Part shown: positions 17,008 through 63,146 of the stretch, in pieces
Position numbering within the stretch: position 1 is the stretch's first letter
How the letters are laid out: the number at the start of each line of letters is the position of its first letter
NCBI RefSeq assembly: GCF_000317025.1
Contig: NC_019689.1
Coordinates: forward strand, 3,736,024 to 3,800,023
DNA: 64,000 nucleotides
Direction of reading: 5' to 3'
Origin: Pleurocapsa sp. PCC 7327
GTDB taxonomy: Bacteria; Cyanobacteriota; Cyanobacteriia; Cyanobacteriales; Microcystaceae
Notes under the pieces: model-generated
Told to the model about the DNA's origin: nothing
Database searches by the model: none
The model's input: the letters and a program-made list of their open reading frames with translations, nothing else
Translations under genes and position numbers: made by a program

Positions 17008-17642
17008 TTAAAACCTAGTCAGAATGTAGAGCAGCGAGAAAAGGATAATCCAGATGATATCGACGAAGTGCCAGTAGATTTCTGCCATTTCTACGCCGAC
17101 GTGTTTAGCAGCATTATAGTGACCTTGACGGCGCGATCGCCACAATACGTCCAGGATTAACAAAACCCCAATAGTAACGTGAAGGCCGTGAAATCCAGTC
17201 ATCAAGTAAAAACAGTTGGAAAAGATATTAGTCGTCAACCCATAACCGAGGGTTAGATATTCGTATACCTGACCAGCTAGGAATACAATCCCCATCAGGG
17301 CAGTAACGATACGATATACCAAAGCCACAACCCACCAACATCTCCTTTCTTGATGGCTACATCGCCTTGGTAGATGACGAAACTGCTAGACACCGGAATA
17401 ATTGTATTGATTGCAGGCAATAATAACTCGACTTCGGTTCCTTCTGGAGGCCAATTGGCAGCCGCACATCGGTAAATTAATTAGGCAGCAAACATCTCCC
17501 CAAACATTAAAGATTCAGAAACCAGGAAGACGAGCAACCCCAGTACTCGATAATCGGGATGTTCTGCATGAGCAGTAGCTGCAATGGCATGAGGGGTTGA
17601 GGAGTTGGAAATTATCGGAGATTCAACAGTCGATCCTTGCAT
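17008..17642 (-). pseudogene. ctaE: Cytochrome c oxidase subunit III, disrupted
   Basis: The whole gene can be followed on the minus strand. It starts MQGSTVESPI and reads ...LVSESLMFGEMFAA, then meets an in-frame TAA (17481-17483) where the family has an aromatic residue before LIYR. It continues through WPPEGTEVE and GDVAIKKGDVGG, then needs a 2-base shift at the TATATC at 17313-17318 to enter the last 100 residues (ALMGIVFLAGQVYEY ... MAEIYWHFVDIIWI). Two independent lesions make it a pseudogene. The intact C-terminal frame shows that the decay is fairly recent. Confidence 0.88.
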
Positions 17643-17665
17643 AGATTTCTTTTGTTGTTTGATAG

Positions 17666-17724
17666 TTGAGAGTAGTTAGTAGTTAGTGGGAAGCTTTAAA
17701 CTAACTACTAACCAATAACTAATT
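17666..17724. repeat. Heptamer repeat between ctaE and ctaD remnants
   Basis: AGTTAGT/AGTTAGTGGG units followed by ACTAACTACTAACC units form a small inverted pair of heptamer tracts. Confidence 0.45.
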
Positions 17725-18496
17725 AATTCTTTAACTCCGAACTTACTTCTGAGAGTATCTCCGATACGGATTCGCTTTCGTCAACGCTGAGGCTGTCAAT
17801 GCCATAATCGTAAGGCCCTGCCCAGAGAACAGGAGGTTCCTCAAAGTTTTCGATCGCGGGTGGAGAAGTGGTTTGCCATTCCAGAGTCAATGTCTGCCAG
17901 GGATTGCGACCCGCAACTTCCCCAGCTCTCCAACTCCAGAGAATATTAACAATGAATGGCAAAACGGAGATGCCCAAGATATAGGCACCATAGGTACAAA
18001 TCTCATTAAGTGGCGTAAATTGCGGGTCGTACATGGCTACCCGTCGCGGCATTCCTTTCAATCCGAGTTCGTGCATCGGCGAAAAGGTGAGGATGGTGCC
18101 GACAAAGGTAAGAGCAAAATGAATGCGTCCCAAAGTTTCGTTGAGTTTGCGTCCCGTCATTTTGGGGAACCAGTGATAAATTCCCGCGTAAATGCCAAAG
18201 ACGGAACCGCCAAAGAGGACGAAGTGAAAATGAGCGACCACATAGTAAGTGTCGCGAACGTGAACGTCAAAGGGAGCAGTTCCCAGAGTAACGCCACCGA
18301 TCCCGCCGAAGACGAACATTGCCAGCAAACCGATCGCAAATAGCATGGCACTGGTAAAGCGAATTTTACCACCCCAGATTGTAGCGACCCAACTGAAGAT
18401 TTTTACGCCCGTAGGCACGGCAACCATCAGGGTAGAAATGGTCAAGAACATCCGCATCCAAGGTGGGGTGCCGCTGGTAAACATGTGGTGTACCCA
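17723..18496 (-). pseudogene. ctaD: Cytochrome c oxidase subunit I, 5'-truncated
   Basis: Only the last 255 or so residues of a protein of about 550 are left. The remnant begins at WVHHMFTSGTPPWMRM and keeps the heme ligands in HFHFVLFGG, the PRRVAMYDP loop and an acidic C-terminus. The first seven or so transmembrane segments, the low-spin heme histidine of helix II and the CuB ligands in the missing part are gone, so no oxidase can be made. Similarity stops abruptly at about 18496, where the transposase remnant begins. No ctaC is present. Confidence 0.88.
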
Positions 18497-23821: not shown

Positions 23822-24091
23822 TCACTGATAACTGTTAACTGATTCAGCTTCCCAGCACCGTTCCAACCAATCCACTAATTCTGGACGAGCAGCGAATAAC
23901 TGTTGAACGGTACTGCGTAACAGAATTGCATCGATGCAATTGTTAACTTCTACTAAGAGTGACCCATCGCTGGGACACCAACAAGGAATATTTAATTCGT
24001 GGAGGCGGTGATAGACGAGCCAGCGATCGCTGCGAGAAACTTTCGCCACCTCCCAGACGAATGCTTGAGAACTTGAAGGGTTATACATCAT
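23822..24091 (-). CDS. Asr1405/Asl0597-type small protein
   Basis: The 89-residue protein contains [21 protein letters not shown] then IPCWC, and ends around LERCW. I recognise this as the small cyanobacterial family that accompanies nifP. The function is unknown, and two cysteines (CWC) could bind a metal. Its start overlaps the end of nifP by 11 bases, so it depends on nifP translation. Confidence 0.75.
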
Positions 24092-24827
24092 TGTAGTGAC
24101 GCTCTCTTTGTAAATTCCGTATCTGTTGTTCCATTTGCTCGATGCGATCGAGTAACATCCGAATGACTTTCCCTTCTACATCGGGTAATTTGCCATGTTC
24201 TAAATGTTCTAGGGAACAACCATGACCCGTGCGCGAAACGATGCGACCGGGAACTCCCACCACCGTACAATCGCTTGGGACGTTTTGCAGGACGATCGAC
24301 CCCGCACCGATGCGAACGCGATCGCCAATATTAATATTTCCTAAGACTTTAGCACCCGTCCCGACAACGACGTTATTGCCCAAGGTTGGATGGCGCTTGC
24401 CACTCTCTTTTCCCGTTCCCCCCAGCGTGGCATTTTGATAAATTAAACAATAGTCTCCAATAATAGCCGTTTCCCCAATGACGACTCCCATGCCGTGGTC
24501 GATAAATACGCCTTCTCCAATGGTTGCGCCGGGGTGAATTTCAATACCAGTCAAAAATCGTCCCACGTGCGAGAGAAAGCGGGGCAGAAAAGGAACGCTT
24601 TGACGATAGAGCCAATGAGCAAATCTATGTAGCGCCAAAGCATGTAAACCAGGATAGCATAACAATACTTCCAACCAATTTCGGGCGGCTGGATCTCGCT
24701 CGAAGATGATTTGAAAGTCCTTCCTCAGCGCCTGCAAGGGAGGGAGGGTCAGAGGACGCGGGCAATCCGTCGAGGAAGCCTTTACCTTCCAAGGTTGGTT
24801 TGTTTTTAGGGTGATGGGATGTAGCAT
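24081..24827 (-). CDS. nifP: Serine O-acetyltransferase NifP (CysE-type)
   Basis: The 248-residue left-handed beta-helix acetyltransferase makes O-acetylserine for cysteine and so sulfur for Fe-S clusters. Hexapeptide repeats run from about residue 95 to 190, with the active-site [12 protein letters not shown] and the NATLGGTGK loop. The first 30 or so residues ([13 protein letters not shown]...) and the last 40 (coiled-coil, ending [17 protein letters not shown]) extend the catalytic core. The promoter upstream shares a composite element with nifB. Confidence 0.92.
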
Positions 24828-24917
24828 CGAATTGGGCGATCGAATTTGAGGGTTTCGATGTTTATACCAAGTGCCCCTAGATAGATCGCACTAATTCGTG
24901 TTGGTTAAGATTATTTG

Positions 24918-25057
24918 ATTAATCAACTTGCACTCATTTTAGTAGAATCTTGACAAGATAAAGCTTAGAGTTATTTGAAAAAAATTTTTTGGGTCGAGGG
25001 GCTAGTATTTTTTAATAGGGGTTAGAGTATTTATGCATGGAGGCGCAAGTATTTGTG
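24918..25057 (-). promoter_or_regulatory. nifP promoter region with triple 22-bp-phased motif
   Basis: Reading towards nifP (minus strand), three motifs each begin AAATACT, with their ACT exactly 22 bp apart (ACT complement at 25048-25050, 25026-25028, 25004-25006). The last is AAATACTAGCCCCTC. Next come CGACCC, an A6T7 tract (24978-24990) and a GAGTGCAAGTTGATTAAT box (24918-24935). The same series in the same order precedes nifB. In Leptolyngbya boryana the nifB-nifP promoters are activated by CnfR. That these are CnfR sites is inference. Confidence 0.75.
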
Positions 25058-25372
25058 TACTCAGGTTTAAACTCGCTCTAATCCAGTTCTGTTAGACTTT
25101 TTGGGCAATTCATCGAACAATTTTTAGTAATGTGGCTTTGAACTCAAAAATCGATTCTTTCATCGATCTTGAAACCTTTACCTAGTAAGTCCTCTAGCTT
25201 TTAAAACAAAATTTTTTTGAATGGTTTGAGTAGGCAATAAAATTCCTATCGATTAAATGTTAAATTAGATACAGAATTAAATTCCGTGACAGCACTGGGG
25301 AAGCCGAAGATGCTTACTCCAGTTTTTTTTAGAGTTGGCAGGACAACTAAGAGCTAGGCAAGCTAATACACT
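25058..25372. other. Intergenic region distal to the nifP promoter
   Basis: AT-rich stretch with no supported gene. It contains the left copy of a 30-bp direct repeat and leads into the dead toxin gene. Confidence 0.5.
25256..25285 (+). repeat. Left copy of a 30-bp direct repeat
   Basis: AATGTTAAATTAGATACA followed by GAATTAAATTCC occurs again at 27637-27666 with 28 of 30 bases identical. The two copies flank the toxin-antitoxin and GGDEF genes that separate nifP from nifB. Confidence 0.8.
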
Positions 25373-25604
25373 TCATCGTGACTGCCGATGTCAACAAAAA
25401 CGGCTTTTCCATCATCTGTGAAGTAAAATATGACTCTCTCGTCGTATTCCAAATAATTTATGAGTTTTCAAGCTGCGCTCAAAAGGATCGTTGGTAAACA
25501 GCTCTACTTTTTGCCAAAACTTTACTTCTAAGTCCGCATTTGCCTTAATTCGCTTTTTGAAAGCACGACGAAAGGAAGAGCTAAAACTAATCTCGATCGT
25601 TGCT
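25373..25604 (-). pseudogene. RelE/ParE-type toxin remnant
   Basis: The minus strand reads EISFSSSFRRAFKKRIKAN, then FWQKVELFTNDPFERSLKTHKL, then shifts frame to YDERVIFYFTDDGKAVFVDI and GSHDEVY before TAG. About a dozen residues of the usual central strand (SGKLKGLWSF-like) are missing at the shift and no start codon is evident. It is a dead member of the RelE/YafQ-like toxin superfamily. The antitoxin gene lies immediately upstream. Confidence 0.72.
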
Positions 25605-25806
25605 CTTCCATCAGTTGCCTGAGTTCGTTAATATCGGAAGAAAACTTTAAATTACCTTTTTGTTCTTCTGCTTGACTCATTCTGAAGTTATTATAAATTT
25701 CTTCTCGTCGTTCTTCCCTCAAATATTGCCTCAGTAGCAGTTGAATTTCTTGTTTTTCTTCAATAGAAAGTTTTTTAATAGCCTCGACTAGGTCGCTGAA
25801 GCTCAT
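25528..25806 (-). CDS. Probable antitoxin of the dead toxin pair
   Basis: This 92-residue frame starts MSFSDLVEAIKKLSIEEKQE and is helical, with a charged centre (LREERREEIYNN), like small cyanobacterial antitoxins paired with RelE-type toxins. The last 25 residues are read from what should be the toxin's start in another frame, so the natural stop near LMEE has been lost. The product may be non-functional. No clear Shine-Dalgarno sequence is visible. Confidence 0.55.
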   Translation of the reverse strand: MSFSDLVEAIKKLSIEEKQEIQLLLRQYLREERREEIYNNFRMSQAEEQKGNLKFSSDINELRQLMEEQRSRLVLALPFVVLSKSELRQMRT

Positions 25807-26092
25807 GACGCGAAATATTTTGTAGTCTTTATTCAATTAATTTAGCACGATGCAGATAGGATGGCGATCGCGCTCTCAAATCACAACAGCCGAGTAATAA
25901 TGAAGCAAGAGGCAAGATAGCCAACCCATATCTACTTGCTTTTTAGTGATTGTAACCATTGACGCTGAAACTCCTGTTGTACTTCAACTGATGTCCTAAA
26001 TTATGCTGATGAATCAGCTTACTAGAAAAAATTCTTAAATTGGTTGAAGTGCGATCGTTCTTATACCAATCCTAGAAATTCCAAATAATTCG

Positions 26093-27487
26093 TCAAACGT
26101 TAAGGCTGTAAGTGTTTCGACCTCGTTGTTTAGACTGATAGAGAACTCGATCTGCCATCTCCAATAACATGTCTGGCAAACTGTTTTGTGTGGGAATAGT
26201 GGTAGCAACTCCTAAACTAACGGTAATATAGCCATTGCTGCTAGCAACATGGGGAATCTGAAGCTGCTGGACTTGCGTAAGAATAGCTTTTGCTATATGC
26301 TCGGCTCCAGTAAGATTGGTATCGGGCAAAACGATCGCAAACTCTTCTCCACCATAGCGAGCAACTAGATCGGTAGGACGTTTGATAACTTGAGAGAGAG
26401 TCTGCGCGACTTGCACCAAGCATCGATCTCCCGCTGGATGACCGTAGATATCGTTGTAACATTTGAAGCGATCGACGTCGCACAAAATCAGCGACAATGG
26501 ACTGATGCAGCGTGCCAATCGCTTCCATTCACGAGCAAAATACTCGTTGAAATAGCGACGATTGGCTACATTAGTCAGTTCATCGATAGTTGCCAATCGA
26601 TGGAGTTCTTGATTAGCTGCTCGCAACTTCTCGTTAAGCTGCTTTAATTCGCTAGTTTGGCGATCGATGATTTGCTGCATCTGTTCCATCACATGATACG
26701 TCTGTGCTGGATCGATCCGTTTGAGCAATTGCGTTTGAGTAACAATCCCAGCTAACTCGCCAGTGGGTTCGGTAACGACCAAGCGACGAACTTGTAATTC
26801 TTGCATTCGTTGATGTACGATCCAAAGGGAACTCTGAGGCTGTACGGTAGATAAAGGTGCGCTCATGACGGTTTGTGCCGATAGGCGAGCGAAATCTCGT
26901 TTGCTTGCGTGAAGCTTAATAATGTCTCGTTCTGTAACGATTCCGACTGGAATAGAGCTATTGGCATTGACAATGACGATACAACTGACTCGATGCAATG
27001 CCATCTGTTGGGTTAGCTGCAAAACTGTGTCGTTAGGCGATCCGCAAATGACATTCCTTGCCATTACCTCAGCTACCTGTATGTAGCGCAGTAAATATTC
27101 TGGCTTCAAAACGTTGCGAATGCTCTGGGGAGTTACGATACCCATTAAGCGATCGCGATCGTCTAATATTGGCAGATGGCGAATTCGATAACGATTAAAT
27201 AGCTCCGATACCGTAAAAATGTTGTCAATTTCGGAAGATTTTAGGCTAATTACTGTTTGAGTCATGAGATCGGCTAGGGTAAGTTTTTCTAGCGACCTCC
27301 CAGAAGAAATGACTTTGACGACATCTCGTTCAGTCAAAATCCCAACGAGTTTTTGATTATCGACGACTAACACGCAACTCGTCCGTGCCTCATTCATCGC
27401 TGCGATCGCTTCTGTCACCGATGTAGAAGGTGACAAGGTCAATGGCGATGACTGAACGATTGCTTCAACGGTTGTCTGCATCTGCAT
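26093..27487 (-). CDS. Four-CBS diguanylate cyclase (CBS-GGDEF)
   Basis: The 464-residue soluble protein has two CBS pairs (about residues 5-130 and 135-265), a coiled-coil linker (about 270-305, VMEQMQQIIDRQTSELKQLN) and a GGDEF domain. The active-site GGEEF is at 379-383, with the inhibitory-site RPTD five residues before it, so c-di-GMP synthesis with product feedback is predicted. CBS pairs usually sense adenine nucleotides. It sits between the nifP and nifB promoters in an apparently inserted segment. The start is chosen at ATG 27487; an in-frame TTG lies eight codons upstream. Confidence 0.9.
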   Translation of the reverse strand: MQMQTTVEAIVQSSPLTLSPSTSVTEAIAAMNEARTSCVLVVDNQKLVGILTERDVVKVISSGRSLEKLTLADLMTQTVISLKSSEIDNIFTVSELFNRYRIRHLPILDDRDRLMGIVTPQSIRNVLKPEYLLRYIQVAEVMARNVICGSPNDTVLQLTQQMALHRVSCIVIVNANSSIPVGIVTERDIIKLHASKRDFARLSAQTVMSAPLSTVQPQSSLWIVHQRMQELQVRRLVVTEPTGELAGIVTQTQLLKRIDPAQTYHVMEQMQQIIDRQTSELKQLNEKLRAANQELHRLATIDELTNVANRRYFNEYFAREWKRLARCISPLSLILCDVDRFKCYNDIYGHPAGDRCLVQVAQTLSQVIKRPTDLVARYGGEEFAIVLPDTNLTGAEHIAKAILTQVQQLQIPHVASSNGYITVSLGVATTIPTQNSLPDMLLEMADRVLYQSKQRGRNTYSLNV

Positions 27488-27636
27488 ATCGATACACTGA
27501 CTTTTTAACAATGACTGTACTTGTTTTGGTGCGATGCCGATTTATTTTGATTTAAAAAATCTAAGTTGCTTGGATTTTGTTCACCATTTAATCGATCCAA
27601 AGAAAATTTTAAATTAGTTTTGCTATCTTGCCAACG

Positions 27637-27666
27637 AATGTTAAATTAGATACAAAATTGAATTCC
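27637..27666 (+). repeat. Right copy of the 30-bp direct repeat
   Basis: This copy differs from the copy at 25256-25285 at two positions and has the same orientation. It lies about 110 bases distal to the first CCCTC motif of the nifB promoter. Confidence 0.8.
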
Positions 27667-27773
27667 AGTAGTTTCCGAGTACAACAATAGAAAATAAAAA
27701 ATTATTGGGGAGAATTACCCAAAACCCTTGTGTGGATTTACGCAGATTGGGTTGGGGTAGTGAGTGCGCGAAC

Positions 27774-27894
27774 ACCGTCCCCTCCTATAAAAAAAACTAG
27801 CTCCTCTGCTCAAAAATACTAGCCCCTCAACCCCAAAAAATTTTTTTTCTAGTTATTTCAAGGCTTTTGTCCCTGAGTACAAACTTGATTAATT
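27774..27894 (+). promoter_or_regulatory. nifB promoter region with triple 22-bp-phased motif
   Basis: Three motifs start exactly 22 bp apart: ACCGTCCCCTC (27774), ACTAGCTCCTC (27796) and ACTAGCCCCTC (27818). They are followed by AACCCC, an A6T8 tract (27835-27848) and GAGTACAAACTTGATTAAT (27875-27893). Element order, phase and orientation match the nifP promoter. Upstream of nifB the leader is about 150 bases long and holds no reading frame I can support. Confidence 0.78.
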
Positions 27895-28048
27895 CCAATA
27901 AATTCCGATCGCATCTTTGTACTCATGCCCTAAAAAACTGGGGTGGTATAACTCTTTTATTGCCAACGCCAACAAATCAGTTTAACAGTTTTTTCAAAAT
28001 TTGGAATTCTACCAGAATTCATCTGCACACAACTACTTACGGAATTCA

Positions 28049-44137: not shown

Positions 44138-44482
44138 GTGATTAAACCAGAATATCTCGCTCAAGAATATGTATTGCTAGTCAAGAATTATTATCCGATG
44201 ACTGGGGAGTTATTAGAGTATTGCTATGTCAAAATTCTTGAGTGCTATCTGGAAAGATCGGGGAAGCGTTTTTATTACGTTGGCGTTTATTATCCCGAAG
44301 GAATGTTAGCTGTCATTCAAGAGCAACAAGATGTTTTAAAAGATATTGCCGAAAATATGGGATTAGTTACAGTAGTTTGTATCAATGCAACTCGATTGGT
44401 ACGCGATCCAGTTTCAAATCTAAAACAAGAAAATCCTCGTCTTTGGCTAGAGTTATATTGGGTCACGGCACGCAGATATTGA
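44138..44482 (+). CDS. Unknown protein between fdxH and fdxB
   Basis: The 114-residue frame starts at GTG with GAGGAG upstream: MIKPEYLAQEYVLLVKNYYP. It is tyrosine-rich (ECYLERSGKRFYYVGVYYPE) and ends LWLELYWVTARRY. It has no membrane segment and no cysteine motif. I do not recognise a family. Codon use and context fit a real gene of the plus arm. Confidence 0.65.
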   Translation: MIKPEYLAQEYVLLVKNYYPMTGELLEYCYVKILECYLERSGKRFYYVGVYYPEGMLAVIQEQQDVLKDIAENMGLVTVVCINATRLVRDPVSNLKQENPRLWLELYWVTARRY

Positions 44483-59340: not shown

Positions 59341-59401
59341 CGCTTTGGTCGATCGAATGCCTGTTTTGGGAAACCTAATAAAAATTAAAGAAGTGAAAAT
59401 C

Positions 59402-62099
59402 ATGTCACGACTTTTGAACCGCCAGCCAGAAACTTTAGAAGAGAAATATTTTAGAGATATTCGCCCAACTTTATACGAACGACACGCAAAACATCAGCAG
59501 TATGGTGTCAGAAAAGGAAGAACGCTGGCAGAACATCTCGACTCAGCTTGTCAATTTGTCTTAACGGTTAGTCGAAAAGCAAAAGTTTCAGAAGATAAGC
59601 GACCTTTCCTATTAGCTGCAACGGCTGTTCACGATCTCAATAAATTAGATTCATTAGGAAGAAATGTCAAAAAGTTGGCTAGAGATCGAGACTTTTTACA
59701 AGAGCAGTTAAAGTTAGCTTGCGTCTCAGATTTTGTCTCTACTGAAGAAGATTTTGAGCTAGTTAGAAGACTAATCGAACGGCATTCAGGTCATAATGCC
59801 AGCGATGGGATGAGATTTTTTCCTGAAGATGAGGCAATTAAACAATGGGCAGCTATGCTTATTGGTGCAGATTTATTTGACCTTGGTATTCCAGAAGTAG
59901 AGCGAATTCGTAAAGTTGAAAATGAATTAACGGTAGCTTTTGGTCGTCCCAGTCATCTATTTAAAGTTAGTGTCTCGAAAGACCAAGGTTATATTACTGC
60001 CCTATTACTGAGTGCTTGCGAAGAAGTTTTAGGGAAATATGGGCTGACTCCTCTGGCAATTTTTCCAGATGGAGAACTATTTGAGGGAGAAGTTTTACCA
60101 AAGCAAGACTTAACTAGAGAAATTGCTATAGTTTGGCAGAAAAACATCGATCGCGTTTTTAGTGGAAATATCGAACAACTCGTCCATTCTACTAAAGATG
60201 GAATTAAAGTCGATCCTCAAGCAATTCAGCAAAATTTAGAAGAAGCCCTCATTTGCGTTCGCTCGTTTCTTGAAAAGAAAAAAGCGGGGTTTAAGCTGGA
60301 TAAAGTTAGTCAGGATATTAACAAATGGGGTAATGCAGCAGGTGAAAATGCTTTAACTATAGCCAATAATTTAGGTTTGCTACCCGTTACTAATCCAGAA
60401 GAATTTGCTATATCAGAAGGCTTAAAAGCTGCTTATCTAAGTTATAGAAAAGTTGGAATTAGTCCTCAAGAAGTTTGGAATCGAATTGCCATTCAAGTAG
60501 GTTTATCTGAGGAGCAAAGAAAGGCACTCGAACTGTTTGATGTTCAATATGGGCGCTGTTTATTTGCCGCCAAAGCAGCTTTAGCCTCAGTAGGAATAGA
60601 AGGTGTGATAGCAGCACTGAGAGAATCTTTTCAGATGCGACAAGGAAAGCAATCTGAAGACTCAAACTCGGAAGTTTCTGAGGAGATAATTGCAGAAGTA
60701 GGTCGCAGTCTAAACTTACCTCATTCAAACAATTGGAAAGGAATTGATGAACTAAATACTTATATTAATGCCAATCCTCGACAACGCTGTTCTTTAGGCA
60801 CTCCTTCTACTCAGATAGAAGAATTAATTTCTAATAAAATGCCACCGGAAACAAAGGTTCAATTTTTCTCTAATCGCTTACCTGGCGGAATGAGTGCAGC
60901 ACCGAAAAGACGAGCAAACTCAATAGCCGCTTTAGCTTATCAATTAATAGCAGTTGGGGCTAATTTTCCAGCAGTCAAAAAAAAAAGATCTGCTTTATTT
61001 ACTTTATTTACACTTTGCTTTACCTCAAGGAACTTGTCCAGAATTACTGAGAATCTGGCGACAATTCTTAAGAGAGACTGCTGCAACTAATACAGAAGGA
61101 GGAACAGTAACTGTTGATGAATTAAAACTCTATCAAGATAATATTTTAGAATTTAAAGCCGATAAAGTCGTTGGTTTTGCTTTTCCTAAACGTCCTGATT
61201 TTATCCATTCTACTGTTATCATTCCTGTTGTTTGGGGAGATGTTAATACATCTGTTGCTCTTCTAAAATCTCTACGATTAGCTTTAGAACTCTCTTTATC
61301 TTTTGATTTTGGTTTCCCTTTTACAATTAGCGGAAATTTAGAGGTAGAGGTTTGGAGCGATCTTTATGGCAGAGTTGAAGGAATCCCATCAACGCTACAA
61401 CCTCTTCTTAAAAATGGACAGTATCTTCGTCAAGATGCAGAAGAAATCCTGAAAAGATTGCGAGATATCGGAAATCTTTCAGTTTTAGTTTCTAGCCCTC
61501 AGAATCGAGATGATTGTCTTTACGATCTAGCTCGTGCGGCAAAACGCCCTCTCGATTTTTATTATGTCTTATTTCGCTGGATTTTACGCGAACAAGACGA
61601 ACCAAATTGGGAATACTATTGGAGTCGTATTTGCCAACCATTAAATAGTTTACTAAAGAGTCTTATGCAGGAAGAATACGAACAACTAACTAAGTACTTA
61701 AAAGAAGCTGCTCAAATTGCAGCAGAAGCAAAACTCTGGGGAAGTTCATTTAAAAGAACCTCTCAAGTCGAACCGTTTAGTGATTTTCTTGCAGCTATTC
61801 GTGCAAGAAAATCTCATCTTCCGTGGGAAGTTGTTTTTGCTTCTTTGGTTCAAAATTATCATACTCGTCTCGATCGCATTCGAGAACATGGTGTTGGAGC
61901 AACTAAATACGAGCAAATTACCAAGTATTACGAGGTGTTGAGAAACCTGTTTGCTGAAGTCTATCAAGAGCGTCCTGAAAAACTTTTAGCCGATCGCAAA
62001 ACTCTTGAACCTGCTTATTTATTTTTCCTCCAAGAAGCTCGCCAGCAACTTAAGAAATCATCTGAAACTGAATCGCTTGAAACCATTGAATCTAATTAA
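59402..62099 (+). pseudogene. csc3: Type I-D Cas10d (Csc3), frameshifted in an A10 tract
   Basis: The two overlapping frames together give a protein of about 900 residues. The first half has the HD-nuclease segment AATAVHDLNKLDSLGR. It runs to the ten-A run at 60977-60986 and then reads out of frame to a stop at 61088. With nine A the frame would continue KKKDLLYLLYLHFALPQGTC through to the TAA at 62097. Cas10d is the large subunit of the type I-D effector and carries the target-cutting nuclease. The start is set at ATG 59402. The frameshift could be real, slippage-corrected or a sequencing error. Confidence 0.87.
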
Positions 62100-62111
62100 T
62101 AGGAGATAATT

Positions 62112-63146
62112 ATGACTATTGAAAAACTCACTCCATTTCTTGCGCCAACTTATGAAAATTTTCCTAAAGGACGCACGATTGGATTAGTTGTTTTAAGAAC
62201 AACTCACTCTGAAACAATTTTTCGGACAGAAGGTTCGGGCGAACCAATGTGTAGTGAATTTGTGCGAGCGGGAATAGAGGATAAAAATATTATTTCTCGT
62301 TTGGTGATGACCAAGCGCAAACAAGTTGCGCCCGAACGACGGCGAGGACGGGAATTTTTGCGCTCTCATAATCTTCTTTATAACAGTCCTAAAGGCGATT
62401 CGATTTGCTCTCTCAATACGAATGCTCCCTGTGAAATGTGCATTGATTGTTTTCTCTACGGTTTTGCTGCCGGAGGCGAAGGCGCACAAAAAAGTCGTGT
62501 TTGGACTGAGGATGCATTTAGCGTGTTACCGAGTACGGAGTTAGTCGGCGATCGCACAATTAATGCAATCTTTGAAAATGGGACGATGCGGGATGAAAAC
62601 GGGAAAGCTTCAACCGCCCTCAATACCAGCGAATACATCAAACCAGGCGTTCATTTTCTCGATATTGTCACACTCAAAGATGTAACTGCCGATGAGTTGC
62701 GTTATGTCTTAGGTAACATTCTGCTAACCACTCGCTATGGTGCAGTGTCTAGTCGAGTTGGGCGCATGGAAAATGAGATTTTAGGGGTTTTTGGCGGAAT
62801 TGCGGAACTTCCGAGTTCTCTAGAGTTAGTACAAGCAGTTCATGATCGCTTAAAAGCTTCAGGAAAACCTGTAGAACATCCTCTCAATACTAACGAGTTA
62901 ATTTCTGCAACCAAGCAAGCGATCTCAACTTGGATAGATAAGCGAGGAATCTCTATGCAACTTTCTGAAGATGAATTAAATAATTTAATTGCTGATGTCG
63001 ATCGCCATTTATCGCCAAACGAACAAGAGAATTTTCTCAAACGTTTAGATAGATCTTACGAAAATTTCCGTCGTCTTCCTGCGGAAACAGAGACCAAAAA
63101 AGATAAAAAGAAGAAAGCGAGTACAACAATTTTAGGCGAAGCTTAA
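62112..63146 (+). CDS. csc2: Type I-D Cas7d (Csc2) backbone subunit
   Basis: The 344-residue RAMP protein forms the crRNA-covering backbone of the type I-D complex. Csc2 features are visible: the start FLAPTYENFPKGRTIGLVVL, the cysteine-rich insertion APCEMCIDCFLYGF and GAVSSRVGRMENEILGVFGG. AATAGGAGATAATT precedes the ATG. The C-terminus is lysine-rich. Confidence 0.93.
   Translation: MTIEKLTPFLAPTYENFPKGRTIGLVVLRTTHSETIFRTEGSGEPMCSEFVRAGIEDKNIISRLVMTKRKQVAPERRRGREFLRSHNLLYNSPKGDSICSLNTNAPCEMCIDCFLYGFAAGGEGAQKSRVWTEDAFSVLPSTELVGDRTINAIFENGTMRDENGKASTALNTSEYIKPGVHFLDIVTLKDVTADELRYVLGNILLTTRYGAVSSRVGRMENEILGVFGGIAELPSSLELVQAVHDRLKASGKPVEHPLNTNELISATKQAISTWIDKRGISMQLSEDELNNLIADVDRHLSPNEQENFLKRLDRSYENFRRLPAETETKKDKKKKASTTILGEA

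Follow-up and report, generated by a model that had tools for sequence, protein, structure and literature searches.

Upstream of nifP, the 64-kb window (the whole stretch of DNA analysed) carries three minus-strand copies of the word AAATACT, at 25054-25048, 25032-25026 and 25010-25004, both steps between them being exactly 22 bp. The array that they form, together with its counterpart upstream of nifB, is real and not a product of chance, and, judged by its conservation, it is functional. From the sequence comparisons presented below, we consider it likely that the three copies are sites, held in phase, at which CnfR, the activator of nif genes, recognises the DNA. The array is an element of an already known kind, with an unusually regular architecture, while its 22-bp phasing rule and its quantised geometry with the breadth of the latter may be new, as may the third target operon that is predicted here.

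Arrays upstream of nifP and nifB

Direct reading of the minus strand confirmed the threefold AAATACT with identical 22-bp steps that an earlier note on this DNA had described, as well as the positions given there for ACT (25050-25048, 25028-25026 and 25006-25004) and the C-rich halves following the three words (GCGCCTC, TAACCCCT and GCCCCTC, respectively). The sequence of this strand before nifP is GAGTACAC AAATACTTGCGCCTCCATGCAT AAATACTCTAACCCCTATTAAA AAATACTAGCCCCTCGACCCAA AAAATTTTTTT. Past the copies, the A6T7 tract (24990-24978) and the box GAGTGCAAGTTGATTAAT (24935-24918) were likewise found as claimed. Two of the proposed designations hold in part: ‘CCCTC-type’ describes the motif locally but not phylum-wide, where the consensus is AAATACTnGtaCCcc; and of the downstream box, the TGAGTRC part is conserved, while the TTGATTAAT tail occurs in 2 of 47 promoters, both belonging to this window. 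The nifP side comprises the following elements:

25057..25062, minus strand: upstream GAGTAC box, 8 bp before copy 1 (TGAGTAC in the conservation profiles)
25040..25054, minus strand: array copy 1, AAATACTTGCGCCTC
25018..25032, minus strand: array copy 2, AAATACTCTAACCCC
24996..25010, minus strand: array copy 3 (proximal), AAATACTAGCCCCTC
24978..24990, minus strand: A6T7 tract, the conserved A/T tract, one 22-bp row past copy 3
24930..24935, minus strand: downstream GAGTGC box (copy 3 starts 75 bp before it)
24862..24869, minus strand: extended -10, TGGTATAA, 66 bp past the GAGTGC box
24081..24827, minus strand: nifP (CysE-type serine O-acetyltransferase, TIGR01172), start at 24827

Transcription of nifP is predicted to start near 24854, 27 bp before the ATG, according to a spacing rule anchored on the A. 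variabilis nifB1 start published in PMC4284476. The same architecture had been claimed for nifB, and indeed the plus strand carries copies beginning at 27770, 27792 and 27814, followed by A6T8 and GAGTACAAACTTGATTAAT:

27762..27767, plus strand: upstream GAGTGC box
27770..27784, plus strand: array copy 1 (degenerate), GAACACCGTCCCCTC
27792..27806, plus strand: array copy 2, AAAAACTAGCTCCTC
27814..27828, plus strand: array copy 3, AAATACTAGCCCCTC
27835..27848, plus strand: A6T8 tract
27875..27880, plus strand: downstream GAGTAC box, 61 bp from copy 3
27944..27951, plus strand: extended -10, TGGTATAA
28049..29518, plus strand: nifB (TIGR01290)

Both window promoters possess the extended -10 TGnTATAA, at the distance expected for an extended -10 promoter without -35 such as that mapped for A. 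variabilis nifB. Throughout the own genome (4,986,817 bases, up to 3 mismatches), the two-copy 22-bp pattern matched these two sites only, and its reversed control gave 0 matches in the same genome. The divergent arrays are separated here by about 2.7 kb (25057-27770) vs. usually about 450-600 bp in relatives; a gene of a CBS-GGDEF diguanylate cyclase (26093-27511) and a small ORF lie between them, apparently inserted.

Periodicity and promoter geometry among cyanobacteria

Cyanobacterial nifB loci were picked by NifB protein similarity alone, 1 kb of upstream sequence was taken, and repeated non-simple 7-mers were counted at every spacing against shuffled sequences. A 7-mer repeated at 22 bp was found in 43 of the 50 upstream regions, with 2.85 expected (shuffle mean), a set that holds many Nostocales, so that these counts do not equal independent events. 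The top word was AAATACT, and the second-best spacing, 44 bp, was observed in 13 loci; among proteobacterial nifB loci, 1 of 29 displayed the 22-bp repeat. When single copies were scored and the spacing was left free, the highest-scoring copy had its best partner at 22 bp in 39 of 53 cases and at 44 bp in 6. On the nifP side, an independent single-copy matrix, trained on nifB arrays and run on loci fetched with the nifP protein, revealed spacings of 22 bp (10 loci), 44 bp (5) and 23 bp (1), and none in 13 loci, many of which are probably ordinary cysE; the same matrix gave 0 of 29 on the proteobacterial loci. Thus, the check on orthologous promoters that the earlier note had proposed identified 22 bp as the dominant spacing at both nifB and nifP. 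The signal is also present in Oscillatoriales, Chroococcales/Pleurocapsales, Pseudanabaena and Prochloron, the array being conserved upstream of nif genes in heterocystous and non-heterocystous diazotrophic cyanobacteria.

Three copies of the consensus are present in 43 of 46 nifB arrays and two in the other 3. Alignment of the 46 arrays by the proximal copy yielded the successive rows TGAGTACAAA, AA..CctGa.CCcc, AAATACTnGtaCCcc, AAATACTaGtaCCcCTACCC and an A6-T5 tract, the best conserved array positions being C+5, CC+11/12 and the AAATAC start. The promoter elements follow one another in the order GAGTAC box, three copies, A/T tract, second GAGTRC box and extended -10 TGnTATAA. The first box precedes copy 1 by 8-9 bp, and where that copy is degenerate, the distance from the box to the first scored copy is 30 bp; the second box, downstream of the array, is present in 45 of 47 promoters. 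An NtcA box, GTA-N8-TAC, was considered as a likeness related to nitrogen control in cyanobacteria; the array word has TAC-N2-GTA, in contrast, and the candidate was rejected, GTAN8TAC occurring in 1 of 47 array-to-promoter regions.

Distances were measured in another 40 loci, with 70 arrays that include both promoters of the window; the arrays had been found with the 22-bp pattern, so that in this set only the box and -10 distances constitute independent evidence. The second box lies 61-65 bp (49 cases) or 73-77 bp (12 cases) past the proximal copy, with single outliers at 86 and 39 bp, and never at 66-72 bp. In the protein-selected set, which overlaps partly with the former, the corresponding values for nifB-oriented arrays are 61-65 bp (10) or 72-76 bp (34), with none at 66-71 bp. 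The preferred offsets, about 63 and about 74 bp, differ by one helical turn. In Nostocales, the offset is mostly 74 bp at nifB and 64-65 bp at nifP, which makes a one-turn switch visible between promoters of one lineage. The extended -10 follows the second box at 65-67 bp in 57 of 60 promoters of the 70-array set, and at 65-68 bp in 57 of 60 promoters of the protein-selected one. Applied to four Anabaena/Nostoc nifB loci (L054, L046, L068 and L042), the spacing rule predicts transcription starts at -324 to -326, vs. the start published for A. variabilis nifB1, 328 bp before the start codon, with a putative extended -10 (PMC4284476). In the nifB promoter of a Gloeomargarita MAG (L080, position 5770), a single copy can be recognised; GAGTAC stands there at the canonical +63 and the extended -10 at +126.

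CnfR as the proposed binder and competing explanations

The assumption of the earlier note that the copies are CnfR sites is supported by co-occurrence, by two CnfR-type genes in the same genome and by the literature. According to published work, transcription of nif genes from nifB and nifP needs CnfR, and the elements conserved upstream are regarded as its likely sites (PMC8510180; PMC5943405), those upstream of A. variabilis and L. boryana nifB being cis-acting (PMC8510180). The protein has a pair of 4Fe-4S sites at its N-terminus and an XRE domain at its C-terminus (PMC8510180); in L. boryana as well as in Synechocystis, it drives nifB and nifP (PMC5943405).

No CnfR-type gene was found within the 64-kb window. 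The own genome encodes two CnfR-type proteins (G000:C1:679931-681529, 533 aa; and 61369-62985, 539 aa), which are 51% identical, have Fer4 and HTH_3 matches each, and possess XRE domains near-identical in the presumed recognition helix (SQSWIRDLE / SQSWVRDIE). A. variabilis likewise has two, CnfR1 and CnfR2. Both CnfR-type genes lie far from the nif cluster, yet only two arrays were found in the own genome. The Cys spacing of the second cluster in CnfR differs from that in the regular expression used at first, which missed CnfR.

For the co-occurrence analysis, a looser 22-bp pattern proved noisy, its reversed control giving similar results in many genomes, and was replaced by a three-copy pattern. 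With up to 3 mismatches, the latter called arrays in 113 of 390 genomes of the cyanobacterial class (reversed control, counted by eye: about 17 matches in 15 genomes), and strong full-type CnfR, defined by our own cut as a best E below 1e-120, was present in 122 of the 390. Both occurred in 107 genomes, the array only in 6, CnfR only in 15 and neither in 262 (odds ratio 311, Fisher p 7.6e-71, uncorrected for phylogeny); this association reflects shared descent in part. The 15 CnfR-only genomes include some fragmented assemblies and some degenerate arrays, for instance G054, whose nifB is preceded by a degenerate 22-bp array, with a box and a -10 of the same kind.

Weaker CnfR relatives (E about 1e-75 to 1e-112) form a second set and, in several families, often align from residue 60-75 onwards only, i.e., without the ferredoxin part. 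The Gloeomargarita MAG has, near nifB, a CnfR relative (L080, 1694-3268) in which N-terminal 4Fe-4S cysteine motifs were not seen; structure prediction of a Gloeomargarita relative, without alignment, failed (pLDDT 36). Profile searches with CnfR against Pfam, PHROGs and PDB sequences gave convincing matches for the ferredoxin and HTH parts only, and nothing convincing in these databases for the middle domain (approximately residues 75-450); in viral contigs, CnfR was not found.

In the proposed mechanism, CnfR, a 2[4Fe-4S] ferredoxin and XRE helix-turn-helix protein, would bind as one unit per AAATACTnGtaCC copy, and the 22-bp pitch, equal to two helical turns, would stack three such units on one DNA face adjoining the A/T tract. 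The quantised spacing between array and second GAGTRC box favours the same-face idea of the earlier note, its 11-bp steps arguing that the face matters from array to box. With the array, the flanking GAGTRC boxes and the extended -10 placed at fixed or one-turn-apart distances, the complex would be shown to RNA polymerase from one side; the polymerase would use here a promoter without -35, and CnfR would act from about -190 to -140. We infer that CnfR may contact each copy directly, with one molecule per copy setting the number of molecules, may contact the polymerase, and may impose oxygen control via its Fe-S clusters. A more far-reaching reading, to which we would give slightly less than an even chance, regards cyanobacterial nif promoters as one rigid, helically quantised machine with CnfR activating as a far-upstream face-aligned oligomer (about -140 to -190) and with further operons, such as a cnfR-linked one for small unknown proteins in Nostocales and relatives, coded in the same way as undescribed CnfR targets; its terms are three CnfR sites at a pitch of 11 bp per turn, a second box only at whole-turn offsets (about 63, 74 and 86 bp), and a fixed distance to an extended -10 without -35.

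Among the competing explanations, a two-factor promoter, with CnfR on the GAGTRC boxes and another co-inherited regulator or a nucleoid protein on the AAATACT copies, appears unlikely, though it is the most probable of them. Two distinct conserved words do exist, CnfR is tied here to neither one of them, and a figure legend in PMC4284476 marks, upstream of nifB1/nifB2, a TGAGTATA motif and a conserved motif distinct from it. However, the array is accompanied by the boxes, and both by CnfR, and the L. boryana nif cluster was activated in non-diazotrophic Synechocystis once cnfR was supplied (PMC5943405), which argues that a second diazotroph-specific factor is not needed. Much less probable is an action of phased A-tracts, i.e., of AAA every 22 bp and A6T7, through intrinsic DNA curvature rather than sequence recognition: the A-runs do recur in phase and an A/T tract follows most arrays, but conservation peaks in columns that are not part of the A-runs, C+5 and CC+11/12 reaching about 2 bits, and curvature alone would not keep ACTnG..CC. 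Pure A-tract curvature was rejected on account of these columns.

Plasmid iterons, which are served by Rep initiators, consist of phased direct repeats, each only about 17-22 bp long, beside an A/T-rich tract. The 22-bp direct repeats adjoining an A/T tract resemble this layout, and might be an iteron-like replication element or a relic of tandem duplication with no promoter role; we regard this as very improbable, since the array is chromosomal, lies upstream of nif and nif-linked operons and keeps a fixed -10 distance in separate lineages, while CnfR combines XRE and ferredoxin parts with no Rep family detected in it. No Rep gene was seen among the ORFs read around the window array. Chance similarity of AT-rich promoter DNA has a still smaller, practically negligible probability: AAATACT is indeed an AT-rich word that alone occurs 14 times in the window, but the 22-bp repeat in 43 loci far exceeds the shuffle expectation and the own genome gave zero control matches. 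Chance was rejected by the 22-bp excess in the nifB set, the free-spacing partner test and the nifP-homology matrix test.

The preferred reading, an array bound by CnfR, can be compared with two known systems. Tsujimoto, Kamiya and Fujita reportedly described in 2016 (Mol Microbiol 101:411) a CnfR-recognised cis-acting element upstream of L. boryana nifB and nifP, a study that PMC8510180 and PMC5943405 cite. The element is said to comprise nine motifs, of which six are essential, and to lie about 76 bp ahead of the start. This element resembles the window array in the genes, the kind of host, the position upstream of the start and the presence of conserved elements. The A. variabilis nifB1/nifB2 promoters, as described in passages of PMC4284476 (Fig. 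11) and PMC8510180, share a TGAGTATA-type motif, an extended -10 without -35 and three conserved elements, and the loss of two of these three decreased nifB1 expression by 75%. Unlike the array studied here, the motif descriptions in those passages mention no 22-bp repeat.

Candidate targets and neighbouring genes

The phased array bears on how CnfR would switch nitrogenase genes from more than 100 bp upstream of a promoter without -35. The strict spacing rule would lead to sharp predictions (5 bp inserted, off; 11 bp inserted, on), to a genome-wide listing of CnfR targets and to a design rule for compact nif promoters. Efforts to transfer nitrogen fixation to other phototrophs make use of CnfR promoters.

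Nostocales have a third array, at a distance of roughly 9-29 kb from cnfR in the cases with both on one contig, and in two genomes, G546 and G601, an array is situated just upstream of the gene divergent from cnfR. In all eight extra arrays that were inspected, the box stands at +64 and the -10 at +130/131. The genes behind them encode small proteins that match no Pfam family, together with a luciferase-like monooxygenase, a cupin protein and a class-II glutamine amidotransferase. In the cnfR-linked operon (L229-L235 and L238), the monooxygenase was observed in Nostocales, and the cupin and amidotransferase in others. Two small proteins are common to the Nostocales operon and those of G546/G601, and one further small protein of the former, orfC, has a relative in the window at 44138-44470. 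This small-protein operon is predicted from its promoter arrangement to be a candidate new CnfR target, extending the CnfR regulon.

Elsewhere in the window, the region 59345-63146 includes the type I-D CRISPR gene csc2 (62112-63146), preceded by two ORFs (59345-61090 and 60954-62099) that overlap in different frames; they may be one frameshift-split gene, possibly cas10d, with no NCBIfam match. Beside the nif cluster, the genes of cytochrome c oxidase subunits I and III (17008-18484) look truncated: the CtaD ORF covers no more of its profile than positions 285-503 of 504, and the subunit III ORF corresponds to the C-terminal half only.
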